DNA of 21,550 nt, taken from positions 1 to 21,550 of the IMG/VR virus record IMGVR_UViG_3300032053_000613; one strand, written 5' to 3'. The DNA is from a virus. The notes beneath the pieces are model-generated. The model made no database searches. It saw only the letters and a list, made by a program, of their open reading frames with translations, and was not told the DNA's origin. Within the stretch, counting starts at the first letter, position 1, and every line of letters begins with the position of its first letter. A program made the position numbers and the translations under genes. This document shows positions 3,004 to 21,550 of the stretch, one piece after another.

Positions 3004-4449
3004 TTATTTCTTTTTCTTGCCTTCGTAAAGTTTGTCGGCAGAGCGTTGCATTTCCTTCTTACCCGCTGGCGTCAAAGTATATCCAAGTGCTTCTGACCCC
3101 TCAACACCCGCCACACTTCCACCCTTCTTTGCAAATGCACCGGGGATGTTGTATCCCGGCGTGCCGGGACTTGACCCACCACCACCACTTGTGGTAGTCA
3201 TTTCGAAAATAGGTCCGTCAACATTGTCGGCATTCATCAGAACATCGCCACTTTCCGCCTTCCATGCATGTCCCATATCACAATAGTTGTAGGGACTCGC
3301 CTGTTTGTGTTTGTATCCTTTACGATTACACACGGGGCAAATTCGATGTCCATCTGGTGGAAAACTGGATGGGTCTCGGGACATGGCATATATTTCGTCT
3401 GTCTTTTTCTTGAAAGCATTTGGACCAGTTACAGGACCAGCCGCAGCACATCCCGTCATTTCTTTGACATCGGATTGCACATCACTCCACTGCTTTGTTT
3501 TTGGGTCGAGAACTTTCCACGCACCATCGGTGGTTTTCCATACAAATCTGCTGATAGGATGAGTAACTTGGAGTTGATATACAGTTCCTTGTGGTCCACC
3601 CTTACTCTTGACAATGCGCCATTGCTTGCCACCCGGGCTTCCCCAAGTCTTGTCGGCAATGCTCAACACATGATTATCACTCTCTGCACCATTTCCCGTT
3701 TTACCAAAGTCTTGGTATCCTTCTTTTACTACACTCTTGACGATGTGGCGAATAATTTCTTGCAGCGTGGACGCTTTGACTGAACCTTCCTTGAGAGGTT
3801 TGATAGTCTTGATAAAAGTCATTAGTTTGTTGCTTCCCATCTTTTTCGCTTGCTGATACAAATCGATGATGTCATCTGCTGGAAGAGTTCCATTCTTACC
3901 CATCTTTTTCTTTGTCCTGACGATGATGGCATCGGCGGGGTCCATTTCCTTTGGTTCGTAATCACCCTTACGGGCACCCGTTCCTGAGAAAGTTATATCA
4001 CCAGAAGTAGCACCTGCCATGCGGTCTTCTGGTTCATTGCTATCGGGTTCGGCAGTTGCGAGACCACCTTCTTCCCCCTTGGATTGGCCTGTCTTTTGAA
4101 GATAGATTCCCATGAAGGAGTTCGCCTTGCCTTCGGGATACTTGTCATCACCAATGGTCCACTTGCGAATTTGTTCTGAGTTGTTTAATACTCTTACTAA
4201 ACTTTCCTGCCATACCCACAGGAAAATTTCTTTATCAACAAAATAACACATTACTTGGTCATCCAAATGATATGCGGAATCATCATCACTCCATTCATAT
4301 CCAGCCCCCGTGAGTAGGGATTCATATTTTTGGGGTGCTTTCTCATTACCACCGGAATGGAGGAGTTGTTGCACGCCCGGAATCTTGTCAACAGGTCCAA
4401 CGCCGTAGATAGGAATCAACTGTTTTAGAACTTCAAGATTTATTTTCAT
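3004..4449 (-). CDS. Unknown head-region protein with CxxC...CxxxH zinc motif (481 aa)
   Basis: Not recognised. The N-terminal 100 residues look globular (YGVGPVDKIPGVQQLLHSGG, then a Trp/Phe-rich segment FLWVWQ). A polar linker around 120-170 is rich in Gly, Asp and Glu. The middle contains lysine-rich helices, and a putative zinc-binding cluster appears near residues 369-391 (CPVC ... CDMGH). A Gly/Ser-rich stretch (TTSGGGGSSPGTPG) follows, before a basic tail ending KKKK. The start overlaps the previous gene by 17 bases and has a GAGG ribosome site. Its size and modular make-up are unlike T4 gp67 or gp68, which occupy this map position in T4. A structural or assembly role is inferred from context only. 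Confidence 0.85.
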   Translation of the reverse strand: MKINLEVLKQLIPIYGVGPVDKIPGVQQLLHSGGNEKAPQKYESLLTGAGYEWSDDDSAYHLDDQVMCYFVDKEIFLWVWQESLVRVLNNSEQIRKWTIGDDKYPEGKANSFMGIYLQKTGQSKGEEGGLATAEPDSNEPEDRMAGATSGDITFSGTGARKGDYEPKEMDPADAIIVRTKKKMGKNGTLPADDIIDLYQQAKKMGSNKLMTFIKTIKPLKEGSVKASTLQEIIRHIVKSVVKEGYQDFGKTGNGAESDNHVLSIADKTWGSPGGKQWRIVKSKGGPQGTVYQLQVTHPISRFVWKTTDGAWKVLDPKTKQWSDVQSDVKEMTGCAAAGPVTGPNAFKKKTDEIYAMSRDPSSFPPDGHRICPVCNRKGYKHKQASPYNYCDMGHAWKAESGDVLMNADNVDGPIFEMTTTSGGGGSSPGTPGYNIPGAFAKKGGSVAGVEGSEALGYTLTPAGKKEMQRSADKLYEGKKKK

Positions 4450-5521: not shown

Positions 5522-7576
5522 TTATTCTAAAATATTCTTCTCATCCATCAAGGATGCTGTATTATTAGTGCGACTTTCTTTAATCAGTTCCTTGGCCGTA
5601 TCTTTATGAGTCTGACCCAAAAATCTCGCCAAGCTACTGAATAAAGTAGCATCAACCTTTTTTAATTGAGGTTTCATTTTCTGCTCTCGCAGACGCAATG
5701 GAGATCCATCCTCAAAATTGTGTCCAATAGCACTTTTTTTCTTGCCTTCGCTATTTTTATTTGGGTTGTCGTGCATTTGGTGACGACCCAACGGGTCTTC
5801 ACGTCTTACATCTGATTTATGTTCCCCACTTTGGTCACGTTCACTTGTATCCCGGTCACTTCGGTCACGGTTATCCACGATCTTCGTTTCTTTGACTAAA
5901 TCATCGGAACTTCCTTTTAGACCACCCTTCTCACCCCCTGGACCACCCTTTTCACCTCCCAAGTCGCCCAAGTCGCCCAAGTCGCCCAAGTCATCCAAAC
6001 CGCCTCCACCACCACTTGACCCGCCGCCCTCTTCAGAATCCTTACCACCCTTGCCGCCAATCTTTTTAAACGGCTTGGCTGGGTCATCTCCATCCTCTTC
6101 GATAGAGGTAAAGCGGTAACGCTGCTTGGCATCTTCCACAACTTCATCTTTTACAATCTTGATGTCGTCTTCGGACATGTTGAAGATATTTTTGTAAATC
6201 CAATTAAAGGAGAAGAACTTGTTCTCAACCATGTCGGTTGCTGCTGAAATCTTGTCGGACCAAATCTCTATCTTCTCCTTCTCGAAGATGGTAGATGGGT
6301 TGGTAAGTTCGAGTTCAAAATCAACCAGTGATTCATCACGGTATCCCTGAGCATATAAATGGACAATGGCAATCTTGGTCAACTCGGAACAAATAATACG
6401 CTGAATGCGTTGAATGGTGCGAGCAAACCGAACGTCCTCAGAAGCAAGAGTTGCTTTGCCAGAAATGCCTTCTTCATAACCGAGGAATGCCTTCGGAATC
6501 TTCAGTGCTGCCATCAGCTTATTACGAAGATATTCAATGTCCTCGGTTCCAGTCCATTCCATACCGCCGAGAGTGTCAATCTTGGTTCCACTATCACCAC
6601 CACGAACGGGGATGTAATAATCTTCAACCATGTTCTGAAGATTGAAACGGAGGTTATACTCACCCGTTTGTTCATCCATATATGGAACTTTCTTCATCTT
6701 ATCCATCATCTTCTGCATATAGTTATCGACTTCAGCAGGAGGAATGTTTCCAATATCAGTATAGAAAATGCGCTTCTCAGGAGCACGCATGATACGATGA
6801 ATCAACATTGCGTCTTCCATTAAACTTAATTGTTTCCATACTCTTCTAGCACCCTCCAACATACTCTTTCCATATGGAAGAAAGTTGCTGTCGGATATGA
6901 GGCGGAAGTGTGCCATTTCATAATTTTCAAGACTTTCTGCTTGTGCTGTATCAGTTGGACGAAGCTGAAACTTAACATATCTCTTATTTAATGGGTCTGC
7001 ATTTTCAATGCGCTCAACATTATAAGATGATATTGGCTCTACCATGTATATACCATACTCAGGTGTAACATATAATTTAAGATAAAAATCTCCATATTTA
7101 GTCATATTACGAACCCATGCCCACATATTAAATTGAATATTAAGAATGTCAGTAAAAAGATTTTCTAAGATCATCTTAACATTGTTGTTATTAGAATGAA
7201 CTGTTAACATCTTACCCATCTCATTAAACGTGAGGCATTCATCTGCGTAAATATCTAATGCAGAGGATAGTATGGGATCAAGATCCATTGTATCATAATC
7301 ACGGAATAAGTCCATTCTTGCTGCTTGGTAAGATAGAGCAAAGTCTCTGGTATAAGCATTATAAGCGGTAGAGCGGATACGATTAAAACGGTCTCGTAAT
7401 GAATTACGATCCGTGGCATACATGATATTATCAGTATCCTTTATTTTTAACTGTTTGCCACCAACATTACGAACGATAACGTCTGTAGAAAATAGTCTCT
7501 TTAATCTTGCATAAAGAGATTGTTTCTTAACGTCTAAAATTTCGTCGTCAAAAGGTTTTAATTTTGGATTTGCCAT
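5522..7576 (-). CDS. 20: Portal vertex protein, gp20-like (684 aa)
   Basis: T4 gp20-type portal, the dodecameric ring at one vertex through which DNA enters and leaves the head. Residues 1-480 carry the family pattern: AYTRDFALSYQAARMDLFRDYDTMDLDPILSSALDIYADEC (split here only for description, near 72-114), NMTKYGDFYLKLYV, RVWKQLSLMEDAMLIHRIMRAPEKR and the KIPKAFLGYEEGISGKATLA segment near 370-390. T4 gp20 is about 524 residues; the extra length is a C-terminal tail (about 500-684) rich in Gly, Asp, Lys and Glu with GDL repeats. It follows terminase as in a T4-like packaging cluster, although T4 itself has tail genes 18 and 19 between 17 and 20. A small hairpin lies 34 bases ahead of the start. 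The 5' half of the gene is more AT-rich than the 3' half. Identity is confident from motifs. Confidence 0.93.
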   Translation of the reverse strand: MANPKLKPFDDEILDVKKQSLYARLKRLFSTDVIVRNVGGKQLKIKDTDNIMYATDRNSLRDRFNRIRSTAYNAYTRDFALSYQAARMDLFRDYDTMDLDPILSSALDIYADECLTFNEMGKMLTVHSNNNNVKMILENLFTDILNIQFNMWAWVRNMTKYGDFYLKLYVTPEYGIYMVEPISSYNVERIENADPLNKRYVKFQLRPTDTAQAESLENYEMAHFRLISDSNFLPYGKSMLEGARRVWKQLSLMEDAMLIHRIMRAPEKRIFYTDIGNIPPAEVDNYMQKMMDKMKKVPYMDEQTGEYNLRFNLQNMVEDYYIPVRGGDSGTKIDTLGGMEWTGTEDIEYLRNKLMAALKIPKAFLGYEEGISGKATLASEDVRFARTIQRIQRIICSELTKIAIVHLYAQGYRDESLVDFELELTNPSTIFEKEKIEIWSDKISAATDMVENKFFSFNWIYKNIFNMSEDDIKIVKDEVVEDAKQRYRFTSIEEDGDDPAKPFKKIGGKGGKDSEEGGGSSGGGGGLDDLGDLGDLGDLGGEKGGPGGEKGGLKGSSDDLVKETKIVDNRDRSDRDTSERDQSGEHKSDVRREDPLGRHQMHDNPNKNSEGKKKSAIGHNFEDGSPLRLREQKMKPQLKKVDATLFSSLARFLGQTHKDTAKELIKESRTNNTASLMDEKNILE
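5961..5996 (-). repeat. Tandem 9-base repeat encoding GDL units in the portal tail
   Basis: Three exact copies of a 9-base unit (plus strand AAGTCGCCC) at 5961-5987 are followed by a degenerate copy at 5988-5996. On the coding strand they encode GDLGDLGDL plus a DDL unit in the Gly/Asp-rich tail of the portal protein, near residues 527-539. Because the unit is a multiple of three, copy-number change by slippage would keep the reading frame. Confidence 0.85.
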
Positions 7577-7610
7577 TTTTTTAAACTTTCTATTTTATGT
7601 ATATGTGTAT

Positions 7611-7625
7611 GGGGAACAATTCCCC
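7611..7625 (-). promoter_or_regulatory. Hairpin (6-bp stem, TTG loop) in the portal leader
   Basis: The minus strand reads GGGGAA-TTG-TTCCCC, a perfect 6-base-pair stem with a three-base loop, 34 bases before the portal ATG, in the 164-base gap between terminase and portal. No T-run follows it on the minus strand, so it is not a classical intrinsic terminator. It closely resembles the hairpin at 14035-14063 (shared core CAGGGG-N-ATTGT-N-CCC). It might be a processing, pausing or translational control element; the function is unknown. The rest of the 7577-7740 gap is AT-rich and holds no gene I can support. Confidence 0.5.
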
Positions 7626-7740
7626 TGTTATAAATATATTTGTATATATTGATAAAATCTTATATTTTGTCAGCAGTTATAGTCAATTCAGAACCTTTAT
7701 CTGAATATGTTAATATCTTGATATGATGTTGAATTTTAGG

Positions 7741-10674
7741 TTATGATAAAAGCCATCTAATATCTTCTATTCCTTGATTACCCATTCCTTGTCGTCCAGT
7801 TTTCATTTCCCACGCCTTTCTACCATCTTGAATTTGTTTTTGTTTATAAACAGGAGTAATATCTAAAGGTTTAGTCATATGCATTTGTTCAATGGAAGTA
7901 CGAGTTAAATCTATGCCTTCCTGTCGCAGGCGTAAAGCCGTATCTCTTACCCATAGACCAATACCTAATGCCATAATTAAATCATCATTATATGGTTCCA
8001 TTGCTTGGGCTTTACCATTTTTCCAAATAAATGTATCTAACTCTGATAAAGTTCTCTTAGAATAGATTTCGACTGCTTTTTCTCTAAAATACATATCAAT
8101 ATTGTTAATAACAAGTGGACGGGTTTTCACATTTGTACTAAACCCAGGAACTAATTTCTTTTCTTCAGAATCATAACGATTGGTTAATTGTCGTTGAACA
8201 TCAACATATTTTAGATCAGTAGAACTATAAAATGTATTTTTATATTCTCGATCAATAATCGCTTGCAGAGTTGCCCAACCCACATTCTCTCGTTCAACAA
8301 TAAGAATCGCATTATTATATTCAGTTGCTAATGCAACCAAGAAATTACCATAATCTTTTGTACCAAGAGTTCCTTTATATTCAGCACATTGAATAGGAGT
8401 ATCTCCTGTAATATCAAGAACGTGTGCCGCCGAAAAATCTCCCCCGTCACCTCTTGCGACATCTCCAGAAACAATGTAAGAATGTGAATAATCAGGATAT
8501 TGCCATATCCATAATCCTTTATCAACTCCTCTAATTTCTATTGGATCTTTCTGTTTATTTTTCTTATAAAATTCTACAATAGACAATTCAACAACGTTAT
8601 CACCAGATGCAAGGAAATTACAATCAAATTCTTGTGCTGCTTTTTTAGGATTTCCTTGCTTATCACCCTCAATACGTCTCCATTCTTCATCACGTTCAGG
8701 ATGTAATTGCCAAGGTAAAATTATAGGATGAAATCCATTTTTTCCAGTTTTTCCATCATTGTTTTCCTCTGCACTTTGCCACATTCTATGAAAGAAATTA
8801 CCAACTCCTCTAGGAGTCGATAATATTATCGCATTACCACCAGTGTTATGGTTGACATATCCTTCACAAACAAACCGCTCCACAACCGGAACTTTCAAAT
8901 CATAACTGAAATCGTTGCGGAGGTATCGAATTGAGATTACCTCGTCAAAAAACTCGGAGGTATCTTTCTCATATTGCATTTTCAACAACTTGTAATTTTT
9001 CGAGGGATGTAACTTGTTTGAAACATCCAACAAGGCTTCAACTGATGTAATACTTAACCCCTTTCCATTATACCACAAATATCTATCATAAAAACAGTTG
9101 TGTTTCTTTGAAAAATCTCTAATAGACATTCCACTTTCCAAGATGAGATTCTTTACGAGTGTTTTGTCAGGAAAAATTCGTTTAATAGATTTTCTTGATA
9201 GTTTTTGCCATCCTTCTTGTTTTCTTTTCAATCTAAATCCTACGGTAGAATAAAACGAATGGGCGTCAAATCCACCAATAAACAACTCAAATCCATAAAA
9301 TGTTCGTGTTTTATCTTTGATAACGGTAGATTTTGTGGATTTCCACGTTACATCTCGTATGTAACAGTTGATTCCCATATTCAACAACATTGCTCTTACG
9401 TTAGAAAGTAGTTCGTAAGAAACAGAGGTAAGTTTAATTCCCTTCGCTCCCAATGAGCATCCATCCCCATCGAACAATCCTTGGAGAAATGCGACTTGCT
9501 CTTCTTGTGACGCCGACAAAATTCGAGTTGGGACTCGCTTAGTATGTGCCGTTCCTTCACATCCTATCCACTTCAGAAGTTCTTGAACCCACGCAGATTG
9601 AATGTAATAATGTCGCTCATCACTATTTTTGAATCCAAGATTTTTTAACCAATTGATTATTTCCTCATCTGTATTGGTAATACCAACGGTTCCTTTTGAA
9701 AAATGACCTTCTGCTGTCCACAGTCCAGCTAAATAGCAAGTGTCGGTTGGAGATATATCATACCTTTTACTATTAATACGAATGTCCGGAACGAATTTAG
9801 AAAAATCTATGGCTTTTCCGAATACGTTTTGATTATATTTACACAAAACAAAGTCTTTATTTTCCTCCATATTATCTACAGACTTCCAACCATTTTTAGT
9901 CATTAGAGGATGATTTTTTGTCGCCACTAACCTCCCACCGCTCTTAAACCGAACTTCATAGAGATCAGATTTTTCCGACATATAAAAAGAAGACGCATAA
10001 ACTAATTTATCTCCATCATGAACCCTTAACGCTATATCATTGAATCCAATTTTAATTTGATTATTTACAAATTGTTCCAATCTCATCAGACCCTTTTCGG
10101 TTAGTATCAATTGGGATTTATCCAGACAAGATAATGTGGGGGCGGCAGATGTCCACAAATCCTGAGCATCATCAATAAGTGCAGCTTCGTCAATAATCAG
10201 AAGTGAAAGTGCTTGACCAACACCAGACTTTTTGGTCGTGGATGCTGCTTTGATTTGAGACCCGTTGGCAAACTTTAAGGAAAGGCGATTATCTTCAATG
10301 CACTTGACCTTTAACCAAGTCGGAAGTTCTTTTTGGGCATCACGAACCTTGGTAACAACGTCTTTGGCATCGTCTTGTTTCAACGAAATCAGGAGGATGT
10401 TCTTATCCTTATTGAAAATCATCAACCATAATGAATATGAAGCTACTAAAGTTGAAATTCCCATTTGCCGGGATTTTAAAATAATATTAAATTGATAATC
10501 ATGAAATGCTTGTAAGGTTTCTTCTTGAAATTTAAAAAGATCAAATAAAATAGTGCCTCGTATAGGATGCTTAATCTTTACGTAATGCTTCATAAAGTAA
10601 ACAGGAGAGGCAGCGCACTTCGAGAACTCCTGCTTGATAATTTCTTGATAAGAGACGGTCTGTTTATCAGGCAT
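7741..10674 (-). CDS. 17: Large terminase subunit, gp17-like, interrupted by an intein (977 aa precursor)
   Basis: T4 gp17-type packaging motor with ATPase and nuclease. The N-extein (1-182) has the Walker A variant SRQMGIST near 68-75 and Walker B LLIIDEAALID near 158-167. After the intein, the C-extein (611-977) starts TGGNAIILSTPRGVGN, holding the ATPase coupling motif. It then has the RNase H-type nuclease acids in SGDVARGDGGDFS, LIVERENVG and NDDLIMAL. Spliced length is 549 residues, near T4's 610. I prefer the ATG at 10672-10674, preceded by GGAA, with 8 bases of overlap with the upstream gene; the in-frame GTG at 10701 would overlap by 35. The C-extein DNA is noticeably AT-richer than the intein and most of the N-extein. 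The motor needs splicing to work, because the intein splits Walker B from the coupling motif. Confidence 0.95.
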   Translation of the reverse strand: MPDKQTVSYQEIIKQEFSKCAASPVYFMKHYVKIKHPIRGTILFDLFKFQEETLQAFHDYQFNIILKSRQMGISTLVASYSLWLMIFNKDKNILLISLKQDDAKDVVTKVRDAQKELPTWLKVKCIEDNRLSLKFANGSQIKAASTTKKSGVGQALSLLIIDEAALIDDAQDLWTSAAPTLSCLDKSQLILTEKGLMRLEQFVNNQIKIGFNDIALRVHDGDKLVYASSFYMSEKSDLYEVRFKSGGRLVATKNHPLMTKNGWKSVDNMEENKDFVLCKYNQNVFGKAIDFSKFVPDIRINSKRYDISPTDTCYLAGLWTAEGHFSKGTVGITNTDEEIINWLKNLGFKNSDERHYYIQSAWVQELLKWIGCEGTAHTKRVPTRILSASQEEQVAFLQGLFDGDGCSLGAKGIKLTSVSYELLSNVRAMLLNMGINCYIRDVTWKSTKSTVIKDKTRTFYGFELFIGGFDAHSFYSTVGFRLKRKQEGWQKLSRKSIKRIFPDKTLVKNLILESGMSIRDFSKKHNCFYDRYLWYNGKGLSITSVEALLDVSNKLHPSKNYKLLKMQYEKDTSEFFDEVISIRYLRNDFSYDLKVPVVERFVCEGYVNHNTGGNAIILSTPRGVGNFFHRMWQSAEENNDGKTGKNGFHPIILPWQLHPERDEEWRRIEGDKQGNPKKAAQEFDCNFLASGDNVVELSIVEFYKKNKQKDPIEIRGVDKGLWIWQYPDYSHSYIVSGDVARGDGGDFSAAHVLDITGDTPIQCAEYKGTLGTKDYGNFLVALATEYNNAILIVERENVGWATLQAIIDREYKNTFYSSTDLKYVDVQRQLTNRYDSEEKKLVPGFSTNVKTRPLVINNIDMYFREKAVEIYSKRTLSELDTFIWKNGKAQAMEPYNDDLIMALGIGLWVRDTALRLRQEGIDLTRTSIEQMHMTKPLDITPVYKQKQIQDGRKAWEMKTGRQGMGNQGIEDIRWLLS
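8845..10128 (-). mobile_element. LAGLIDADG intein inside the large terminase (428 aa)
   Basis: It begins at Cys183 (CLDKSQLILTEKGLMRLEQF, block A) and ends at His-Asn (GYVNHN, block G) followed by Thr of the C-extein, so all three splice-junction residues are canonical. Block B is LVATKNHPLMTKNGW with TxxH. LAGLIDADG motifs are LAGLWTAEGHF and LQGLFDGDGCS. Block F is YDLKVPVVERFVCEGYVNHN. Removal joins APTLS to TGGNAI, restoring the unbroken terminase motif; this TLS/TGG point is, as I recall, a known intein site in phage terminases. About 100 residues between the second endonuclease motif and block F include a RDFSKKHNCFYDRYLWYNGKG segment (in two parts RDFSKKHNCF and YDRYLWYNGKG) that may be an extra DNA-binding helix-turn-helix. 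Its base composition is less AT-rich than the adjacent C-extein. Confidence 0.95.
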
Positions 10675-11320
10675 AGATTTCCAATTTGAATTTAGTAGCA
10701 CCAGCCAAGTATTTCTTCTTGGCAGCTTCCTTTGACTTTTTGAGGAACGTAATTCTCTTCTTGGCGAGTTTTAAGTCTCGCTTTGCTCCATCCAAAATCT
10801 CTTTAGGATTGTTGTGCTTCCATCGTTCAATAAAACCTTCGGAGTTACAGAGCATGGTCACATCGCCGGAATCTTGGTCGAAGAATTTGATTACCTCTTC
10901 CAATTTACTCTTGATGTCCGTGATTTCCCCCAACTCGTAAGAAAGTAATTTGTATCCCTCGTAGTAGTCGTAGATACCGAGGATACGCAGTTTGGTTTCA
11001 TAATCAATCAAACAAGCGGAACATAATCCAGTGCGATTGAAAAGTTGTTGGTCAACCTTGGTGCCCCAATTGATGTTCTGTCCGCACTTACACTTCTGGC
11101 GAATCATCTCCCGAATCATGTCGCCTTGGGTTTTGGTAAGACATACTGTCTTCCCATTTACTTTTTTATAACATTTCTCATTTACTTTCCATTCTTCTCC
11201 CTCATTATGATACTTATCTTTTTCCAAAACTCGCATTGATAACTGGGTAAAAGGACGAACTCCATCGAGATAATTTTGCACGATCTGCAAATTTGATTTT
11301 CCTCTATATTTCTTTTCCAT
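10667..11320 (-). CDS. Unknown zinc-ribbon protein upstream of terminase (217 aa)
   Basis: The ATG at 11318-11320 follows a good ribosome site (AGGAAGAAGG). Residues about 80-105 carry a four-cysteine zinc-ribbon pattern, CKCGQN ... GLCSACL. The region around 130-150 has YDYYEGYKLLSYELGEI, followed by charged helices and a lysine-rich coiled-coil C-terminus (about 180-210). Its 3' end overlaps the terminase start by 8 bases, implying co-translation. The gene ahead of a large terminase is often the small subunit, and helix plus coiled coil would not contradict that, but the zinc ribbon is not a feature of T4 gp16 and I see no diagnostic motif. I leave the function open. Confidence 0.8.
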   Translation of the reverse strand: MEKKYRGKSNLQIVQNYLDGVRPFTQLSMRVLEKDKYHNEGEEWKVNEKCYKKVNGKTVCLTKTQGDMIREMIRQKCKCGQNINWGTKVDQQLFNRTGLCSACLIDYETKLRILGIYDYYEGYKLLSYELGEITDIKSKLEEVIKFFDQDSGDVTMLCNSEGFIERWKHNNPKEILDGAKRDLKLAKKRITFLKKSKEAAKKKYLAGATKFKLEIYA

Positions 11321-11767: not shown

Positions 11768-14032
11768 TTATGAATAGACAGTTTTTATTCCGGATGGGTC
11801 AATCGAAATTCTTCGTCCAAATGGTCCGGTGAAAGTTCCATCCACCACTGCACTACCCGTGTATTTAACGGCAATTGCTCTAGCGGTCTTGGTTGTGGCA
11901 ACTGTTCCCGCCGTTGTGGTAACATTCACATAGTTTCCATTGATGTTGCTTATCTCCGAAACGTTTGTGTAACAAACCGCCCCATCTCCAGTTGCTGGGT
12001 CTGGTGGGAAGCTTGTTGGAAACCGCCATCCAAGCAGACGAGTTCCCACCGATGGACAACTTCCAATATTCGGGATGTATAAACTCTGAGATATCGTCAA
12101 ACTTCCAGATACGAATGTAAGGAGAGTTGGGTCTGACAATCCACTATTGGCATACAAACTCTCTCCATTGGCATCAAATGTTTGAATGGTTGACAGGTCG
12201 GAATACACCAATGTTGAGTTGATATCATACAATTCCGCCTTTAGTTGAAACGATTCATTGGCGATATTTATTTTGAATGGTATCTTAGTAAACAGAACAT
12301 CGGGTGAAAACCCATAGTCACCATAAACCTTCAAGGACATCTCTGAAAGAGTCACGTTGCAGTGATAGGGCACAATAACCAATGTTCCATAGTAATCAGA
12401 ATTTGGAGTGAAATACAACATCTGCTTGTCTGCAAACACCTTCACCGTTGCATTTTCATTGGTAGATACCGTTCCCAGTTTTAATCCGTATGAACTTAGG
12501 TAATCTTTTTCAATCTGAAGTCGTGGACTTGAACTGGTAAAGAAGAAATCTATTTTGGCATCGTGGGTTGAAAATAACTTTTCCATTACCACGTTGGTAG
12601 AGAGCACATACAGAGATCCCGCCTTCAAACTGATGAAATTGGAGTTGTATGCCGAACCAGTCATTCGGTTGAATGATTCGCTGTCATATGGATAATAAAC
12701 ATAGTCATTGACCGAATTTATTGAATCTGCCTTGGCGATGGCATACTTTGTGCCATCCATCTGAGAATATTGCGGCGTGGTAATCTTTACTGCGTCAATA
12801 TAAGGTTTGACGGAATGTGAAAGATGTATGACATTGGAACTGGTGAACCAATATCTTTGGATATGAGATTGATTGTAAAACGAACCTATCAGAGCATATG
12901 TCTTATTGTTCGTAATTGGGTCAACCAATAATTCTAATGCGTTAAGTGGTTCATCTGCAATCAACTGAAAGTCGCCGGGATAGACCATACTCTTACGATA
13001 GAGTTTGTGACGTGAAATGAATCCTGAAAAAGGTTGTATGTTTCTATAAACTATTTCAGCATATGACTGCTTGATATAAGTAGTTGTCCCGGTAGATATA
13101 TCCACAAATTTAAGGTAATCATCGGAAGCGGTGTTGTAAGCAGTCCACGTATAAGATGTTGTGAATACCCCAAGATTGATATTGGTGACAAATTGGTCTT
13201 TACCCACCGTGTAGTAAAATGGTTCACTGACTTGCATTGTCTTGCTGTCAATGACGTTCTTAATCTTGAACGAAGCAGTCTGATGAATATTCTTGGTGAG
13301 ATAGGAGTGCGGGACTTGAAGCGTGGTACTCATAATCGAAATGGACTGTCCTTCCATTTGTGTATTAAACGAGGTCGTCGGATATAGGGTCGGTCCTGCC
13401 ATTGAATCGGGGACATTTAGGAGGATGCGATAGTCAATATCCGTCTTCTTTGAATTGATATATCTTCGGTTGACATCCTTTTTAGGATTAACTGGTAACG
13501 TAAAGAAGCTTCCGCTAAAGTTAACAGTCTTAGTAAACAGATCAGCAGTGTTGTTGGTGACGACGGGATAAAGAAGACCTCGGCACTCAATCGTTGGTTT
13601 ATTATAGAAACGGACCTTGGAGACGTTCTGCAACGTTTTATCAATGGCAATGTTTCCAATCCACCTAACCGTCTCACCCTTGACCGTGGTGCCTACCAAG
13701 ATGAGTTTACCGGGACCGTTATAAGTCTCCTCAAAGATACTGACGGAAATAACGAAGTTTGCTACATCTGAATAGGATACATTGCTGTGGGGGCGTTCTG
13801 TGTAGAGAGAATTACCATTTGAGTCAAGACACTCCACTTGAATCTCAGTTCCCGCCTTGAGGAGAGATGACCCGTTGAAGGCGACGGGGTTCTTTCCACC
13901 CGTAAAAACGGGGTTGAACTCCGCAATAACGAAGTATTTTGAGAGGTAGCTGGTATCTTCGATGTCGGGTTTGAGGACATCTAGTCCCAATGACACTCCT
14001 CGCTTTCCGAATGATGATAAAAGTTGTGCCAT
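11768..14032 (-). CDS. Large virion-type structural protein (754 aa)
   Basis: A long beta-rich, Ser/Thr/Asn/Tyr-rich and cysteine-poor protein, typical of phage tail, fibre or baseplate components. The N-terminus begins MAQLLSSFGKRGVSLGLDVL and continues with beta-strand-like segments throughout; a Gly/Thr-rich stretch (TTTAGTVATTKTARAIAVKY) lies close to the C-terminus, which ends FGRRISIDPSGIKTVYS. There is no signal peptide, membrane segment or enzymatic motif. I recognise no named family, so the exact role (fibre, neck, baseplate wedge) is open. The ATG at 14030-14032 lies two bases after a strong 13-base-pair hairpin and has no visible ribosome site, so the hairpin may take part in its expression. 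Confidence 0.85.
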   Translation of the reverse strand: MAQLLSSFGKRGVSLGLDVLKPDIEDTSYLSKYFVIAEFNPVFTGGKNPVAFNGSSLLKAGTEIQVECLDSNGNSLYTERPHSNVSYSDVANFVISVSIFEETYNGPGKLILVGTTVKGETVRWIGNIAIDKTLQNVSKVRFYNKPTIECRGLLYPVVTNNTADLFTKTVNFSGSFFTLPVNPKKDVNRRYINSKKTDIDYRILLNVPDSMAGPTLYPTTSFNTQMEGQSISIMSTTLQVPHSYLTKNIHQTASFKIKNVIDSKTMQVSEPFYYTVGKDQFVTNINLGVFTTSYTWTAYNTASDDYLKFVDISTGTTTYIKQSYAEIVYRNIQPFSGFISRHKLYRKSMVYPGDFQLIADEPLNALELLVDPITNNKTYALIGSFYNQSHIQRYWFTSSNVIHLSHSVKPYIDAVKITTPQYSQMDGTKYAIAKADSINSVNDYVYYPYDSESFNRMTGSAYNSNFISLKAGSLYVLSTNVVMEKLFSTHDAKIDFFFTSSSPRLQIEKDYLSSYGLKLGTVSTNENATVKVFADKQMLYFTPNSDYYGTLVIVPYHCNVTLSEMSLKVYGDYGFSPDVLFTKIPFKINIANESFQLKAELYDINSTLVYSDLSTIQTFDANGESLYANSGLSDPTLLTFVSGSLTISQSLYIPNIGSCPSVGTRLLGWRFPTSFPPDPATGDGAVCYTNVSEISNINGNYVNVTTTAGTVATTKTARAIAVKYTGSAVVDGTFTGPFGRRISIDPSGIKTVYS

Positions 14033-14034
14033 AA

Positions 14035-14063
14035 GTATTCAAGGGCACAATGCCCCTGAATAC
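14035..14063 (-). promoter_or_regulatory. Strong hairpin (13-bp stem, TTG loop) abutting a start codon
   Basis: The minus strand forms a 13-base-pair stem with one G-T wobble (GTATTCAGGGGCA paired with TGCCCTTGAATAC) around a TTG loop. Only two bases separate it from the ATG of the 754-residue structural gene, where the ribosome site should be. There is no T-run, so it is not a standard terminator. Its core matches the hairpin ahead of portal at 7611-7625. It might block ribosome binding until melted or bound, or be a processing site. Confidence 0.6.
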
Positions 14064-14072
14064 ATATATCCA

Positions 14073-14165
14073 TCACTCAAAAATAACCTTACTGAAGTTG
14101 CCCTCTCGCTTGATCTCTATCTGCTTATCCACCGCTTCATCGTTGTCAAGTTTAGAGTGACTCAA
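14073..14165 (-). pseudogene. Displaced remnant of the SbcC/gp46 C-terminus (30 codons)
   Basis: This frame, open from 14192 to TGA 14073-14075, encodes LSHSKLDNDEA then VDKQIEIKREGNFSKVIFE and stops. The true end of the SbcC-like gene 0.9 kb upstream reads ISHIDAMKDA then VDHHIEIHHNGTDAKVVFE and stops. Both have the SH of the ATPase H-loop and end in V-FE with matching spacing, apart from one residue. The remnant starts exactly where the endonuclease gene 14162-14903 ends. Its codons are richer in G and C (GCG GTG, AAG CAG, GAG GGC) than the present gene end, more like the body of the SbcC gene. A TTG at 14163-14165 could start a 30-residue peptide, but a relic is the simpler reading. Confidence 0.65.
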
Positions 14166-14903
14166 AACTTCACGAGTTGCTGCCTGTAGGCGTCATACCT
14201 CCAAAATTCACACCCAAGATGGTCCTTGATCTGTCGCATTCTCTCCACATCCTTCTCCCGCAGAGCACCATAGATGTAATGTCTCGGTTCATCATATTCC
14301 ACCACGATATTCAGTACGGGCTCGTAGTAATCAACGAAATACCCAAGATGTTCTATGAAATGCTGTCTGTTCCCAAACCACCCACGTTCCTTTTCCAATT
14401 GGTCGAAGTATTGCTGTTCGCTCTTGCCTATGTTATTCACCCGTCCATTATTGCTTCGTTGAAGAAATAATACCCGAAGGCAAGCTGCTACACGCATTTT
14501 CCGACGTGCTTCGGAGTCGTGTCGTTTTCCAAAAAAGGGATTGAGTTTATCATACCGATGAATACCGTACATCGGATTGCCATTGCCACGGATTTTCGTT
14601 TTATGAGCATTGGTATGCTTGAATCCGATATGAGAAGCAGACATTTTCTTCCGTGATTCTGGATTCGGATGTCTCCCCAAAAAAGTACAAGACCGACATA
14701 GATTTCCTTTTCTATTGGCAAGGTTTCTATTCCCAGTAGTAGAATACGTAAGTGTTGTTCCGCAGTTAGGACACTTTCTCGTAGTATTTTCGCATCCGCT
14801 CACGGTTGACTCGCTCTTTGTTGCGACTATACCACCCCCGCCTCCACCTACGCTTCGCTTCAAGTTGTTCATTTTCTGTCTCGTATTTCTTTTTTCGTCC
14901 CAT
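14162..14903 (-). pseudogene. Homing endonuclease (zinc ribbon, NUMOD3, EDxHD/Vsr-like nuclease), frameshifted near 14777
   Basis: The true start is the ATG at 14901-14903, preceded at 5 bases by a canonical AAGGAG. It encodes MGRKKKYETENEQLEAKRRW and RNKERVNRERMRKYYE, a typical DNA-binding N-terminus of phage homing endonucleases. That frame stops at 14766-14768. Dropping one A from the AAA at 14775-14777 joins it to the long frame at KCPNCGTTLTYSTTG, a zinc ribbon closed by CRSC. NUMOD3-like NPESRKKMSASHIGFKHT and FFGKRHDSEARRKM follow. The C-terminal domain has FVDYYEPVLNIVVEYDEPRH, KDVERMRQI and EFWRYD, the pattern of Vsr-like EDxHD (DUF559-type) nucleases. Corrected length would be about 246 residues. 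The ATG at 14872 in the long frame gives a glycine run that looks like out-of-frame translation. The gene may be dead, need ribosomal frameshifting, or contain a sequencing error. Confidence 0.75.
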
Positions 14904-14908
14904 ATGGA

Positions 14909-14914
14909 CTCCTT
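14909..14914 (-). promoter_or_regulatory. Canonical Shine-Dalgarno (AAGGAG) that fixes the endonuclease start
   Basis: The minus strand reads AGAAAGGAG, five bases, then ATG at 14903. Most core genes in the window have weak or no such site, so this marks the frameshifted upstream frame, and not the ATG at 14872, as the real start of the homing endonuclease. Confidence 0.75.
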
Positions 14915-14954
14915 TCTATAAGTATATTACTCCAAGCAAAAAACTCCAACAATT

Positions 14955-17900
14955 TCACTCGAATACAACTTTTGCATCTGTTCCATTATGATGAATTTCA
15001 ATATGGTGGTCAACTGCATCTTTCATAGCATCTATATGAGATATGATGATAATAAAATCAAAGTCATTCTTCAATACTGACAATAGGGTATGCATAGAAG
15101 CCATATTATCAGGGTCGAGACACCCCCAGCCTTCATCAATGAACAATGCGGTCGTCTTGGGCAGATTGGAGATGTTTGTAAGGGCAACCCGAATGGCGAC
15201 AGACGCCACGAATCGCTCATAACCAGAGGTCAGTTCAATTGGCCATCGACCATACTCATAAACGACGTAGGGAATGATGTTCTTGCCATCGGTCTCAAAC
15301 TGAATGGTATAGTCAACCACTTGACTGAGAATGGAATTAACTTCTTTCTCAATCTCGGGCACAGTATTGCAAATGACTTGATACGGGATACCGTCACGTC
15401 CCACCGACAACATGTAGTGCTGATAAGAGTCGGATTCGTTTTCCAACTCCGCGACTTCCTTCATGGTTTTTGTCACCATCGCAATAGTGCTGCGAAATAG
15501 TTCCCGCTTTCCAGAAATGTCCATCAAGGAGCGATTCTGACGCTGGAACTCAATATCCAGTCGGGTAAGCGTATTGCGGTATATTCCAATCTTCGCCCGC
15601 ACCTTCTCATTCTGCATCACCGACACTTCATTACGGTGATAAAGTTCAATTTGGCGAGTCGCATCCTTCAACACTACGTCCAACTTCTCCAACTCGTTCG
15701 TTGTAACGATGATGTTGCGACTAAGAACCGCACCCTCGTCCTTGACCTTGCTGCGGTCTGTCAGTGCCTTGGTATAGGTTTCATACACCTGTTCAACCCA
15801 AGTGAACTTGGCGAGTTCCTCCCGAAGGTTGTCCAACTGTTCCAACATCTTATCCGCTTCTTTCTTATCTTCGGACAGTTGCTTCTTTGCTCTGCTCGCA
15901 TCCTTGACAAAATCGTTGTTGATGCAGAATTTGCAGTTGGGGTCATATTCATGCTTATCCAGACGAGCGACCTTCTCCAACTTGCCCTTAATCTCAACCT
16001 TCTTGAGGTCCATCTTCTGCTTGACTTCGTTAATCTTGTCGGATAGAGACTTGTAGGTCTTGTGACTCTCAACCAAATTGGACTCTTCAATCTTCTTGAT
16101 TTGTGCATTGAGGTCTGCGACTGTCTTTTCTTTCTCGGCAAGCAGAGTCTTAAACCCTTCCAATGCCTGCTTTTTCTGCTTGACCGAAGTCTCAGCAGTG
16201 GTCTTCTTGGTTTCCAAAGCGGGAAGATTGGTCGGAACATCTGCATCTAAACGAATCAAATTAGCAGTTTCCGCAATGATTTGGTCGTTGACATCCGCAA
16301 TTTGCTTCTTGAGACTGTCAACTTCCCCTTGATTCTCATCAAAGAGGGAGATGGCATGTGCCAGTGCATTCTCGTTTTGCTGAATCTCGTGAGGATAGTT
16401 CTTGTCCTTATGGAGTTTTAGAATGGCATTCAACTCCTTATTGCGTTCACCCGCCGACTCCTGTAAACGATCAAAAACGTTCAGACCAATAAATTGAACC
16501 ATGAGGTCTTTTCGCTCACTGTTGCCCATGTCAATGAATGACGATAGATTCTTGGCACTCTGAAACGATGCTGCTGTGAGGATAAAATCCTCATACGTCC
16601 CGATGTAATCACGGATAATATCGTTTGTATCACGCCTTGCTGTACCATGCAATTCCTCTTCGACTCCGTTGGTAAGATTCCAGAACTTAACGTCCACCTT
16701 AACATTTCCCGAGCGAGTGGTTGAACCTTTACGCTCAATGAAGTAGCGAACACCCGAAATCTCAAACTCCAATTTACACTTGAATGAAGTCTTTTGCACG
16801 TTCATAACGTGGACTCCTTTGAATCCACGGTCAAATTTATCAAAGAGGCAGAAAATAAGTGCCGACAAGATACTTGACTTGCCCGATTTGTTTGGACCGA
16901 AGATTCCATAGACTCCTGCCATGGACGTAAAATCAATGACATTGTTCTCACCATAAGTGAACATATTGTCAAACTCAAAACGGATGGGTTTCCACTTGAG
17001 ATTTCGGGCGAACTCGTCACGCTTGATAAGCAAATTCGTATCCCGATTGATTTTCAAAATCTCATCAATCTTCTTCTGGTCCGTGATTTGAATCTTCTTC
17101 TGCAAGAACTCCGTAATGAGACGATTTTGATAATCAACGTTTGTCAAGTCGGTTAAAACGATGTCTTTGCAGAGTGGAATAATGTCCTTCTTGTCTCGCT
17201 CTTGGTCCATGCGGACATAGGCAGTTTCTACTACAAATGCCATTTCCTTAATATCAGCAATAACCTTTTTGACTTCGGAAGCAATACTGTCGTAACACTT
17301 GAGACGAAGACGAACCTTCTTAGGGAGGTCTTTCAAGTCAGTCGTGAGTTGACCCTTGTTCACGTTAACGGTAAAGTATCCAAAATCATTCTTGAGTTCG
17401 TGGAACTGGTAAGTGCGTGTCTTCAAGTCCCACATTGAATATCCGTGACCACGCAGACCTTCACCGTGGTTCTGCTGAATCATGCTGCCAACGTAGTGTA
17501 TGCAAGGTTTATGGTCGTCAGGCGCATAGTCCTGCATATCTTGCTTCTTATGTATGTCCCCGAGCAACGCAATATCGTTGTAGTCAAATAACGGGTTCAT
17601 AATGGCGGGGTTGCTGATGGAATACCCCGTCTCCAACGATGCCTTGTCCACTGCCCCGTGGAACATGGCAATGATATGCTCATACTGATTGCGATAAATA
17701 TCGGGAATGGTATTGCCCGCTATGTAACGCTCGGGCGCATCGAAGACGCCCATGTTGTTCCAAAGGATGTTGCCAAATCCGTATAAACCCGTAGTCTTGA
17801 GATAGAACAAGTTAGGATGATTTAGTGAATCAACTAGTGGAGTCAAGCTATCCAAGCGACTCTTGTTGGACAGCGTAGCATCGTGGTTTCCCGCAATAAG

Positions 17901-18161
17901 AACGAGTGGGCGAATGTCGGCAAGTGCCTTGAACAAATCTGTCGCCATCTGAATACATTCGGGACTCAAATCCGATTTGCTATGAAACACATCACCAAGC
18001 AACGCCACAACTGTTTCGGGCGGGGATTTTTTGATCTCTTCGTAGAGATTGGCAAACACTTCCTTGTATTCATCATGCCGTTTATTAAGCCTGATATGCA
18101 AATCAGCGATTTGCAAAATATTGGTGTATTTCGGAAATGGGGAGTTGAGTAAAGTCATCAT
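14955..18161 (-). CDS. Fused SbcD-SbcC (Mre11-Rad50; gp47-gp46) recombination nuclease (1068 aa)
   Basis: One uninterrupted frame carries both subunits of the recombination exonuclease, which T4 makes as separate gp47 and gp46. Residues 1-270 are the Mre11-type phosphoesterase: IADLHIR (18-24), LLGDVFH (54-60), IAGNHD (89-94), AMFHGAV (165-171) and LLGDIHK (199-205). From about 390 follows the Rad50-type ATPase: Walker A GPNKSGKSS (422-430), long charged coiled coils (about 560-740 and 750-910), a zinc hook CKFC (743-746), signature LTSGYERF (977-984), Walker B ALFIDEGWG (1005-1013) and H-loop ISH (1040-1042). It should resect DNA ends for recombination-dependent replication. The start is ATG 18161, overlapping the upstream stop by ATGA; the adjacent ATG 18158 is equally possible. 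The last roughly 50 codons are AT-richer than the rest and may have come with the downstream homing endonuclease. Confidence 0.95.
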   Translation of the reverse strand: MMTLLNSPFPKYTNILQIADLHIRLNKRHDEYKEVFANLYEEIKKSPPETVVALLGDVFHSKSDLSPECIQMATDLFKALADIRPLVLIAGNHDATLSNKSRLDSLTPLVDSLNHPNLFYLKTTGLYGFGNILWNNMGVFDAPERYIAGNTIPDIYRNQYEHIIAMFHGAVDKASLETGYSISNPAIMNPLFDYNDIALLGDIHKKQDMQDYAPDDHKPCIHYVGSMIQQNHGEGLRGHGYSMWDLKTRTYQFHELKNDFGYFTVNVNKGQLTTDLKDLPKKVRLRLKCYDSIASEVKKVIADIKEMAFVVETAYVRMDQERDKKDIIPLCKDIVLTDLTNVDYQNRLITEFLQKKIQITDQKKIDEILKINRDTNLLIKRDEFARNLKWKPIRFEFDNMFTYGENNVIDFTSMAGVYGIFGPNKSGKSSILSALIFCLFDKFDRGFKGVHVMNVQKTSFKCKLEFEISGVRYFIERKGSTTRSGNVKVDVKFWNLTNGVEEELHGTARRDTNDIIRDYIGTYEDFILTAASFQSAKNLSSFIDMGNSERKDLMVQFIGLNVFDRLQESAGERNKELNAILKLHKDKNYPHEIQQNENALAHAISLFDENQGEVDSLKKQIADVNDQIIAETANLIRLDADVPTNLPALETKKTTAETSVKQKKQALEGFKTLLAEKEKTVADLNAQIKKIEESNLVESHKTYKSLSDKINEVKQKMDLKKVEIKGKLEKVARLDKHEYDPNCKFCINNDFVKDASRAKKQLSEDKKEADKMLEQLDNLREELAKFTWVEQVYETYTKALTDRSKVKDEGAVLSRNIIVTTNELEKLDVVLKDATRQIELYHRNEVSVMQNEKVRAKIGIYRNTLTRLDIEFQRQNRSLMDISGKRELFRSTIAMVTKTMKEVAELENESDSYQHYMLSVGRDGIPYQVICNTVPEIEKEVNSILSQVVDYTIQFETDGKNIIPYVVYEYGRWPIELTSGYERFVASVAIRVALTNISNLPKTTALFIDEGWGCLDPDNMASMHTLLSVLKNDFDFIIIISHIDAMKDAVDHHIEIHHNGTDAKVVFE

Positions 18162-18718
18162 AATTCTGGAATGGAAAGTAATTGTCGCATGGGATGAAGT
18201 TCTGAATAGGGGCACTCATAATTAACCCATTCTTTTCGAGAAACTCTAGGTTTGGATAGAAGTTCCGGCTTGAGCAGACACCCCAAAAAATCAATTGTTG
18301 CGGACTTTTTTTCTCGGTCATCGTTTGATAAATAGGAAAATACGTACATGTCTTCGTGAAGAGTCAGCTGCCGTCCATTCATTTCACATCTAACCATAAT
18401 TACACCATAGAGGGCGAACGCTACCTTTATGTTGACGGTTTTTTTTCGAAAGACAGTATCTTGTCTATCCCCGCCTTCAATGTACGATAAATCAATGGGT
18501 GATCCGGTAAGGTTTGTAAATGCCATTTCCCCCAATCGTCCAGATCGTTCTACCTTTCTGGGATCATCCGACGTATTTTTGTATCCTTTTCCCCACAGTC
18601 CTTTTTTCTTATTCGCCCACATGTTGTGAGAAGATTGTTCACACCGAAGATAATCATCCCCCTCTACAACAACTCTCCACGCCTCAATACCAGTTCCATT
18701 ATAGTTTGATATGGTCAT
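18158..18718 (-). CDS. Unknown protein, possible PD-(D/E)XK-fold nuclease (186 aa)
   Basis: The gene overlaps primase upstream and the SbcD-SbcC fusion downstream by ATGA each, so it belongs to a DNA-metabolism operon. Residues 60-100 show a pattern like the core of PD-(D/E)XK nucleases: GRLGEMAF with Glu64, then GGDRQD with Asp87, then TVNIKVA with Lys98. The acidic residue expected two places before the lysine is Asn96 here, so it might be inactive or a DNA-binding derivative. A second half with FLGCLLKPELLSK and a Trp/Tyr/Cys-containing tail is unassigned. The fold call is inference from spacing and motif shape; I do not recognise a named family. Confidence 0.85.
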   Translation of the reverse strand: MTISNYNGTGIEAWRVVVEGDDYLRCEQSSHNMWANKKKGLWGKGYKNTSDDPRKVERSGRLGEMAFTNLTGSPIDLSYIEGGDRQDTVFRKKTVNIKVAFALYGVIMVRCEMNGRQLTLHEDMYVFSYLSNDDREKKSATIDFLGCLLKPELLSKPRVSRKEWVNYECPYSELHPMRQLLSIPEL

Positions 18719-19851: not shown

Positions 19852-20175
19852 TTAATCTTCAAGAGTTTCGTTCAATCTTACTTTGGCGATTTCGAGGTCA
19901 ACCTCGTACCATTCCTTTTTTCTGGATAATGCGAACGGTTTCATCAATTCAACAATCATTTTTTCTGCTCTGTAGCAATCTGGATGAAAAATGTGGTATT
20001 CTACTTTGTATTGCCGACGAGGATCACCTGTTTGGTAAACATGTAAGCGAGATTTTATGTCTTCGGTAACGCCTATTTTCACCCATCCTTTATGTGCCGG
20101 ATTTGTGATGATATATAAATAACCTGGTTTCAAGGAGTGTAAATTTTTTGGTATTTGGGGTCTGCGTGCATACAA
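19852..20175 (-). CDS. T5orf172/GIY-YIG-type small nuclease-like protein (about 107 aa)
   Basis: The protein has GYLYIITNPAHKGWVKIGVT with the paired tyrosine and KIG strands, followed by RLHVYQTGDPRRQYKVEYH, an AEKMI helix and the closing KEWYEVDL strand. This is the T5orf172-type branch of the GIY-YIG superfamily, found in phage proteins of DNA-modifying or mobile character. The arginine of the fold may be R43 (KSRL), and the helix glutamate is E in AEKM. No ATG is available: candidate starts are TTG 20173-20175, giving 107 residues and a 46-base overlap with the upstream gene, or TTG 20131-20133, which forms a TTGA overlap with that gene's stop and gives 93 residues. The domain is complete with either start. 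Confidence 0.75.
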   Translation of the reverse strand: MYARRPQIPKNLHSLKPGYLYIITNPAHKGWVKIGVTEDIKSRLHVYQTGDPRRQYKVEYHIFHPDCYRAEKMIVELMKPFALSRKKEWYEVDLEIAKVRLNETLED

Positions 20176-20352: not shown

Positions 20353-21159
20353 TCATACCGCCGTCCATCCTCTATGATGATTTCGTCTTTTTGAAGAAAC
20401 CGCCGCCATATTTGCAAATGACAACCCCGATTCTCTACAAAATTTTGCCAAATTTGTGAATCTAACAATTTCCCCGGATGGGGATTTGAACTCCCATTCT
20501 TTAGAGTTATTATATTTACCAGATGCCCATAACTGTTTTTGAATAACCGATAATTTTTCTTTTTGTTCAGGATGTTCCTGATAAAACTTAGTAATCCGCT
20601 TTGCGTTCGCAGCAATTGCCTCCGGGGAAGAGTTTACTGTCCGCATCCGTTTTCGGTGTTCTTCTAAAAATTTAGAATCCGTTAAAAACTTATTTTTTAA
20701 TGTTTTTGCTTGTCGTTCTCGAACAATTTTCCAATCCACGCTGTTTCTGCCTTCCCAATATTTCCGTTTGTAATCCGGATCATTTTGATATGATAAGGCT
20801 CTAATTCTATTTTGCTCTATTTGTTCGGGCGTCCACTTATATCCACTATTTCCTTCGCCACCATATGATAAATTACATAAAATTCCCGATGGACGAATAC
20901 CATATTTCTTGATCAGAGCAGATTCCCACTCAAATGCATCCGATTCTGAGATATTCTCTATTATTTTGGAATAACCAATGGAATACCCAAGTCCCAAAAT
21001 CTTTTTTATTTTATTGAAAAGATACTTATTCCCGTTGGAAACATTTCCTTTTTTAGCGGACTTTTCATGAGAATACATTCTGCCTCCAACTCCCTTTCCA
21101 ATGTAAAAAGGATTCCCATTTCTTGGGTCTATAAGTTGATACACATAAAAATTATTCAT
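20353..21159 (-). CDS. GIY-YIG homing endonuclease (268 aa)
   Basis: The N-terminal domain (1-100) reads NNFYVYQLIDPRNGNPFYIG then KGVGGRMYSH, the GIY-YIG signature with conserved arginine (GGR), and the helix AFEWESALIKKYG supplies the catalytic glutamate. The middle is charged, with NUMOD3-like segments (WTPEQIEQNRIRA, SSPEAIAANAKRI). The C-terminus has EFKSPSGEIVRFTNLAKFCR followed by a helix-turn-helix and NHHRGWTAV, a NUMOD1-type DNA-binding tail. The ATG at 21157-21159 overlaps the stop of the RuvC-like gene by ATGA; an in-frame GTG at 21168 is less likely. It should cut endonuclease-free relatives in a neighbouring gene to spread. No frame damage is seen, so it may be active. Confidence 0.9.
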   Translation of the reverse strand: MNNFYVYQLIDPRNGNPFYIGKGVGGRMYSHEKSAKKGNVSNGNKYLFNKIKKILGLGYSIGYSKIIENISESDAFEWESALIKKYGIRPSGILCNLSYGGEGNSGYKWTPEQIEQNRIRALSYQNDPDYKRKYWEGRNSVDWKIVRERQAKTLKNKFLTDSKFLEEHRKRMRTVNSSPEAIAANAKRITKFYQEHPEQKEKLSVIQKQLWASGKYNNSKEWEFKSPSGEIVRFTNLAKFCRESGLSFANMAAVSSKRRNHHRGWTAV

Positions 21160-21550
21160 ATGACGCACGCAATTACTACTGCATCATACATATCTGCATT
21201 TTTTGCATTCCATTCATTTTTATTATTCTTTTTTTCGAATTGTAATACTTCGGGATGTATCTTGGGGAGTTCTTGCCGAACGTATTCTTTGCCGGTCATA
21301 CCCTTGACTCGGGCCTTACCAAAAACGGTCTTGCGGGCAGTGGTCGCATTTATCAATCGGACCCCTATTTTGAAGTGTTCGGAAACTATGTATTCAAAGA
21401 CAGCATTGAAACGGGCAAGTTTGATGACGACTTGTTGACTGGTTCTCCCCATCATAAAACCGGAGAGAGCAGACTCCAAGTTGATTTGAGTCACTTTTGG
21501 AATAAGTGGATGGGCGTCCATGACAGATATAACTCGTAACGCCTTTTCTT
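21156..21550 (-). CDS. RuvC-like Holliday-junction resolvase, C-terminal part (runs off right edge)
   Basis: The frame is open to the window edge and continues upstream of the ATG at 21521 (residues before it read EKALRVISV), so the start lies outside. Visible RuvC-fold features are QINLESALSGFMMGRTS with the second catalytic acid (Glu), then ATTARKTVFGKARVKG, and the C-terminal NADMYDAVVIA with the DxxDA metal-binding pair. The first catalytic aspartate must lie beyond the edge. Such enzymes resolve branched DNA before packaging, the role T4 gives to gp49. The protein ends only a few residues after the DxxDA motif, and its stop overlaps the start of the GIY-YIG gene, so the extreme C-terminus may have been altered by insertion of that gene. 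Confidence 0.8.
   Translation of the reverse strand, partial: EKALRVISVMDAHPLIPKVTQINLESALSGFMMGRTSQQVVIKLARFNAVFEYIVSEHFKIGVRLINATTARKTVFGKARVKGMTGKEYVRQELPKIHPEVLQFEKKNNKNEWNAKNADMYDAVVIACVI

Follow-up and report, generated by a model that had tools for sequence, protein, structure and literature searches.

A free-standing homing endonuclease, which combines NUMOD3 with a Vsr-like fold, very probably homes into the gp46 (SbcC-like) gene of phages and replaces the 3' end of that gene each time, although the steps of cleavage, resistance and repair are inferred. The DNA analysed here, called the window, is a stretch of 21,550 nucleotides (IMG/VR virus record IMGVR_UViG_3300032053_000613, positions 1 to 21,550) with phage genes for a portal, a terminase and a prohead protease. 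A megablast search of the window against annotated phages gave no match; annotated phages hold distant SbcC relatives only (Microcystis phage Mel-JY01, 37%), and a search of genome contigs returned a single distant locus. The SbcC-protein relatives of the window were drawn from IMG/VR, and every locus compared (designated L001 and so on) is a metagenome contig. Mobile elements are unusually abundant in the window: a LAGLIDADG intein is present in each of the prohead protease and large terminase genes (390-2171 (-) and 7741-10701 (-)), and a GIY-YIG gene (20353-21168) and a T5orf172 gene (19852-20175) are also found.

The replaced and the stranded gene end

The endonuclease gene lies directly behind the gp46 stop (Table 1), and the same order is found in L007, L017, L035, L103, L102 and L136. 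In the window, the present gp46 protein ends in ...ISHIDAMKDAVDHHIEIHHNGTDAKVVFE-stop at 14955, and the frame at 14073-14165 (-), beyond the endonuclease gene, translates to ...VLSHSKLDNDEAVDKQIEIKREGNFSKVIFE-stop. An earlier note on this DNA, based on the letters alone, had claimed that the SbcC end is echoed beyond the endonuclease, which is borne out: window DNA past the endonuclease aligns locally to the gene ends of relatives with a score of 111, compared with a shuffled maximum of 35. The contrast in base composition on which that note relied also holds, with a G+C content of 33.9% in the tail (14955-15119), 45.0% in the gene body and 43.9% in the stranded core.

Table 1. Parts of the window locus, listed from the gp46 gene to the DNA behind the stranded end
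Feature	Position	Strand	Evidence or remark
SbcD-SbcC fused gene (gp47-gp46-like), whole	14955-18215	(-)	
SbcD-SbcC gene body, native sequence of the phage	15150-18215	(-)	PHROG 77 + 100; Pfam Metallophos/SMC_N; 98% amino-acid identity to L001 over residues 900-1000
Surrogate gp46 3' end, ALFIDEGW...HHIEIHHNGTDAKVVFE-stop, acquired with the endonuclease	14955-15149	(-)	Change point, identity drop, G+C, grouping of tails
Spacer with ribosome-binding site AAAGGAG	14904-14954	(-)	Aligns with the L015 spacer
Short ORF MGRKKKY...RMRKYYEKVS, 45 aa	14766-14903	(-)	Overlaps the nuclease ORF
Free-standing endonuclease ORF: zinc ribbon (CPxC), NUMOD3, C-terminal Vsr-like PD-(D/E)XK fold	14162-14872	(-)	
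Stranded native SbcC gene end, ending VDKQIEIKREGNFSKVIFE-stop	14073-14161	(-)	Likeness to native ends firm over 14073-14138, weak from 14139 to about 14161
Native intergenic DNA	14033-14072	(-)	Also behind the native gene end in L001

The native origin of the stranded end is seen directly in the relatives without the endonuclease. L001, the closest such phage, shares 98% amino-acid identity with the window over SbcC residues 900-1000, and both L001 and L016 (91% identical overall) lack the endonuclease and have a gene end reading SHLDALKDAVDKQIEIKREGNFSKVIFE-stop. Their terminal residues equal those of the window's stranded frame at 19 of 19 positions, as had been predicted for relatives without the endonuclease, and the bases that follow their gene stop (TATATGTATTCAGGGGCA.TGTGCCCTTGAATACTTATGGC) match the window DNA downstream of the stranded frame. 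When the final 21 codons are compared, the stranded frame agrees with the L001 gene end in 20/21 residues and 57/63 bases, whereas the present gene end of the window agrees in only 12/21 residues and 36/63 bases. Neither of the two results that would have refuted the earlier note (an AT-rich tail on endonuclease-free relatives, or a better match of the stranded frame to an unrelated small protein) was seen.

A group I intron or an intein would give the stranded end a different meaning, that of a second exon, with the surrogate stop bypassed by splicing. Two inteins are present elsewhere in the window and an apparent split intein interrupts gp46 in L156, but the region 13900-15400 has no Rfam match (E ≤ 1) and neither the gene nor the endonuclease has an Intein_splicing match. 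Moreover, the protein is already completed by the surrogate end, with a stop before the endonuclease's own ORF, and only about 16 codons of the stranded end survive, in decayed form, in L017 and L136. Splicing is accordingly judged extremely improbable.

The replacement of the tail is equally a matter of direct observation, and it extends further upstream than the stranded piece. Amino-acid identity between the window and L001 drops from 98% in residues 900-1000 to 75, 68 and 61% beyond. A change-point fit for this pair places the break after residue 1005 (window 15149) with a log-likelihood gain of 22.3, compared with 3-8 for control pairs; the difference rate is 0.161 before the break and 0.380 after it (Fisher p 1.5e-10 for the amino-acid differences across the break). 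The break falls at the codons for Walker B and the D-loop and precedes the H-loop, which is the point at which the stranded piece starts in the window and in L035; in L017, L136 and L086, the stranded piece starts about ten codons later. Thus, the endonuclease cassette with a replacement 3' end envisaged in the earlier note stands, but not its junction at the H-loop codons, since the swap starts at Walker B (residue ~1005). Likewise, a start at the H-loop SH, which had been ascribed to both ends, applies to the stranded piece in the window and L035 and not to the co-replaced segment, which starts upstream.

The surrogate tail is under protein constraint, because dN is 0.29 with dS saturated. 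In pairs without an endonuclease carrier, conservation of the last 29 residues exceeds that of the body by 4.7 points, whereas in pairs with one carrier it falls 14.5 points below it. The donor of the window tail was not found, the best match reaching 68% nucleotide identity over the tail.

Trees built from the two parts of the gene disagree. In the gene-body DNA tree (1800 columns), the window pairs with L001 (100/100) and the carriers, which in the close group are the window, L035, L007, L017 and L015, are scattered; forcing the carriers into one clade is rejected (AU p 3e-70). In the tail DNA tree (168 columns), the carriers' tails form one group with L031 and L011 (91/94), and the stranded ends fall on the non-carrier side, that of the window beside L001 and that of L035 beside L067/L003. 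The tests on the tail tree are weak because the tail provides 168 columns only, and a clade of the window with L001 is rejected there at no more than a modest p of 0.044. L031 and L011 have carrier-like tails without the endonuclease; by inference, they may represent the source lineage or may have lost the endonuclease as L086 did.

Recurrence, decay and loss in other phages

The layout of the window recurs in other phages. L035 has a surrogate tail, an endonuclease of the same family (7298-8170), 1.5 kb of cargo and a complete stranded end, which is intact over 29 codons (ISHLDVLKDAVDKTIEIKKEGNFSFVNYE-stop at 9719; score 124 versus a null maximum of 33) and is followed by the same intergenic DNA as in the native L005. 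The L035 cargo (8213-9674) comprises an endonuclease-VII-like HNH gene and an N6/N4 methyltransferase, with a terminator-like hairpin after the methyltransferase and before the stranded end. L017 retains a decayed stranded end of ~16 codons (score 38 versus a null maximum of 32).

Joint transfer of tail and endonuclease is documented by L127 and L136, two distant phages (SbcC ~40% to the window) with shorter stranded remnants. From Walker B to the endonuclease stop, a stretch that takes in the tail, the spacer and the endonuclease, their DNA is ~97% identical overall (88-98% per 60-base block, mostly 92-98%), compared with 36-82% per block in the gene body upstream and about 52-67% past the endonuclease stop. 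Each keeps its own stranded end, ITKENGFS(R/K)IDNSK-stop, followed by a diverged next gene. The endonuclease gene of L127 has a large internal deletion, and that of L136 a frameshift. As the ~97% block lies within otherwise diverged genes, tail and endonuclease move as one cassette.

These comparisons also bear on whether the tail was imported at all. The endonuclease gene could have been plainly inserted near the gene end, the present tail being a tandem-duplicated or fast-diverged copy of the native end that evolved in place. The tail and the stranded end are homologous, both ending in V-FE-stop, and no donor sequence has been found, as such an origin would allow. However, the change at Walker B is abrupt and lies well upstream of the start of the stranded end, the tails of unrelated carriers cluster, and the near-identity of the L127 and L136 cassettes within diverged genes is not what a local origin predicts; nor is the likeness of L007 to L017, which are 89% identical in the last 29 residues and 74% in the body. 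Evolution in place is therefore considered very unlikely, and import of the tail is the preferred reading.

The element can also be lost. In L086 (7189 onward), a replaced gp46 tail is followed by a native remnant, with no endonuclease. Compared with L071, L086 is 84% identical in the body and 63-66% in the tail, and 13 bases past its gp46 stop lies a fragment, KKENGYSKIDFR-stop, that equals the native end of L071. L086 is a scar of a lost element. Since every locus is a metagenome contig, a chimera of two phages created by assembly could in principle produce a foreign tail next to a native one, but the same layout is found in independent contigs from different samples and distant phages (L035, L017, L127, L136 and L086), always with the same gene, order and orientation and with remnants that are decaying. 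Chimeric assembly is given almost no credence.

Stranded ends are not universal among carriers. None in L007, L015, L103 or L102 stood clearly above shuffled controls, and thus the downstream arm is not always kept. When ~50 distinct loci were scanned up to 2.5 kb from the gp46 stop, stranded ends were found only in L086 (68 versus a shuffle score of 36) and in the already known L017 (44); a candidate in L058 (42 versus 30 in the same scan) was dismissed on inspection. When the surroundings of other endonuclease-family members were searched for duplications upstream and downstream, L035 was the sole clean case.

Several further loci carry additional genes around gp46. The cargo of L103 (1895-5193) consists of an EcoRI-like restriction enzyme, a D12 methyltransferase and a TnpB-like gene, and that of L015 (3175-4918) of a methyltransferase and an unknown 229-aa gene. 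L015 also contains, at 2164-3130, an endonuclease-like ORF of another kind with a C-terminal scrap of a window-type endonuclease behind it; here a second element has overwritten an earlier one at this site. In L002 (8229-8700), a different HNH-like endonuclease gene directly follows gp46, whose end is of the native type, and a stranded copy is absent; the end of gp46 has the appearance of a mobile-nuclease hot spot. In L156 (5194-8029), the SbcC gene is broken at the Walker A codons by what resembles a split intein, whose two halves flank a GIY-YIG endonuclease gene ('fractured gene').

The endonuclease and its proposed mode of homing

The endonuclease is annotated as a homing endonuclease by PHROG and matches NUMOD3 in Pfam (E 3.8e-9), with a weak match to DUF559 that is below the cut-off. 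An AlphaFold2 model of the protein has a mean pLDDT of 75.5 and about 90 in the C-terminal domain. The structural matches of this domain span Z 12 to 7 and include RAP (Z 11-12), Vsr (1cw0, Z 7.6), I-Bth0305I (3r3p, Z 7.4) and Hjc folds, whereas a sequence search against the PDB returned zinc-ribbon matches only and none to I-Bth0305I. The invariant residues D181, E192-Y-D-E195 and H198 suit, by inference, a Vsr/PD-(D/E)XK active site.

A short ORF (14766-14903 (-)), absent from the earlier note, lies ahead of the endonuclease ORF and overlaps it. In the AlphaFold2 model, residues 1-27 of the nuclease ORF are disordered; they overlap this MGRKxKY ORF, and in the region of overlap the MGRKxKY frame is the better conserved of the two (57% identity versus 32% for the nuclease frame). 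Between the short ORF (MGRKxKY...RMRKYY) and the nuclease ORF, the +1 offset of the overlapping frames is identical in 12/12 homologues (window, L007, L017, L035, L015, L102, L103, L136, L111, L137, L152 and L154), and the two are in frame in none. The overlap reflects either a programmed +1 frameshift or conserved overlapping ORFs.

The homing element would thus consist of two linked parts, the surrogate gp46 3' end and the endonuclease gene directly behind it. In a co-infecting phage without the element, the endonuclease would cut gp46 in its 3' part, and the cut is inferred to fall near the start of the stranded piece, at the ISH codons in the window and L035 and at the LEI codons in L136 and L086. 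The break would then be repaired from the element-bearing genome, and the surrogate end and the endonuclease would be copied in the process. One side of the break would pair with the gp46 body, with exchange near the conserved Walker B codons, and the other would pair with the DNA behind the endonuclease, namely the stranded gp46 fragment and its flank. The surrogate end, which is assumed to lack the cut site, would complete the gp46 protein of the recipient, and the recipient's former gene end would be left stranded and could serve as the downstream homology arm for the next round.

The cleavage site, the resistance of the surrogate end and these repair steps are inferences. The presumed cut-site DNA was checked for special recoding in carriers and the result was not decisive: it matches L001 at 24-28/42 positions in carriers and at 27-35/42 in some non-carriers. 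Resistance by recoding remains unproven because the cut-site DNA of carriers is not clearly more altered than that of some non-carriers.

It is also possible that only ordinary co-conversion took place, in which case the donor gene end was carried over by chance, with a duplicated end that is incidental and plays no role in rescue or subsequent homing. With phage T4 endonucleases, flanking DNA is usually co-converted (PMC2988022), and some carriers (L007, L103 and L102) have no stranded end. Conversely, four lineages or more (window, L035, L017 and L127/L136) have the duplicated-end layout, besides the L086 scar, and, if the cut falls inside gp46, survival of the recipient gene can be inferred to need replacement of the target. 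Chance co-conversion is thus regarded as unlikely, though with more weight than the other alternatives, and homing by end replacement remains the preferred reading.

Comparison with known systems

The closest parallel is found in yeasts. WHO elements of Torulaspora and Lachancea home into FBA1, replacing its 3' end each time and leaving older 3' fragments downstream (Coughlan et al., 2020; PMC7282813). Shared with the phage element are the placement of a free-standing endonuclease gene immediately after an important gene, the former 3' end of the recipient as a downstream fragment (window, L035, L017, L127 and L136, with a scar in L086), conflicting trees for the 5' and 3' parts of the gene, and clusters of successive elements. 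WHO elements, however, use intein-derived endonucleases with zinc fingers at the yeast nuclear FBA1, whereas the phage element uses a NUMOD3/Vsr-fold nuclease at the SbcC gene. Cleavage and allele-specific resistance have been demonstrated for WHO elements, whereas both are inferred for the phage element. The phage element works like a WHO element but does not belong to the WHO protein family, as it combines NUMOD3, a zinc ribbon and a Vsr-like fold.

In fungal mitochondria, mobile ORFs (Allomyces atp6; Glomus atp6, atp9, cox2 and nad3) carry foreign C-termini and leave the native end behind (PMC3630166). These also combine an imported C-terminal segment with an endonuclease ORF, and the downstream native C-terminus is the one closer to relatives. 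They differ in having LAGLIDADG or GIY-YIG nucleases in organelle genes, as opposed to a Vsr-like nuclease in a phage genome, and in some of them the endonuclease continues the reading frame of the host gene, whereas in the phage element the surrogate end has a stop, and the endonuclease a ribosome-binding site, of its own.

Among phage endonucleases, the Seg and Mob enzymes of T4-like phages are likewise free-standing, lie beside conserved genes and spread by repair-driven co-conversion in mixed infection, although they sit between genes or split genes (PMC2988022). Review and survey articles on phage endonucleases cover co-conversion, intronless homing and split genes (PMC2988022; PMC10448857). 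In the literature searched, no description of a surrogate end with a stranded native end was found for T4-like free-standing endonucleases, nor any end-replacing element in viruses; most subscription papers lay outside that search.

The I-Bth0305I / EDxHD homing endonucleases share the C-terminal Vsr-like PD-(D/E)XK fold and an association with a phage recombination gene, here SbcC. For I-Bth0305I / EDxHD, the recombination gene that is neighbour or target is RecA. The phage element shows no sequence match to these enzymes and only a middling structural one (Z 7.4), and its accessory domains, a zinc ribbon and NUMOD3, differ from theirs.

By bringing a replacement end, a free-standing endonuclease can target the conserved coding DNA of an important gene without an intron or intein. 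This strategy had been described for nuclear DNA in yeasts and mitochondrial DNA in fungi; the same layout is now seen with an unrelated phage nuclease in several independent cases and a scar, and the ends of conserved phage genes may therefore differ in history from their bodies. Engineered home-and-rescue gene drives have a comparable design (PMC7968924), and for the synthetic biologists who build them the phage element offers a testable system with fast genetics and mixed infections. On balance, the somewhat likelier reading is that the element is the first end-replacing ('home and rescue') element in prokaryote viruses, in which an endonuclease of unrelated fold has converged on the strategy of WHO elements, aims at highly conserved codons in phage SbcC and has repeatedly swept through distant phage lineages with methyltransferase-type cargo, leaving scars after loss and making gp46 ends a patchwork of successive homing events. 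The end-replacement route itself has precedent in the yeast WHO elements and the fungal mitochondrial mobile ORFs, and the phage element differs from these known cases in nuclease family, host gene and domain of life.
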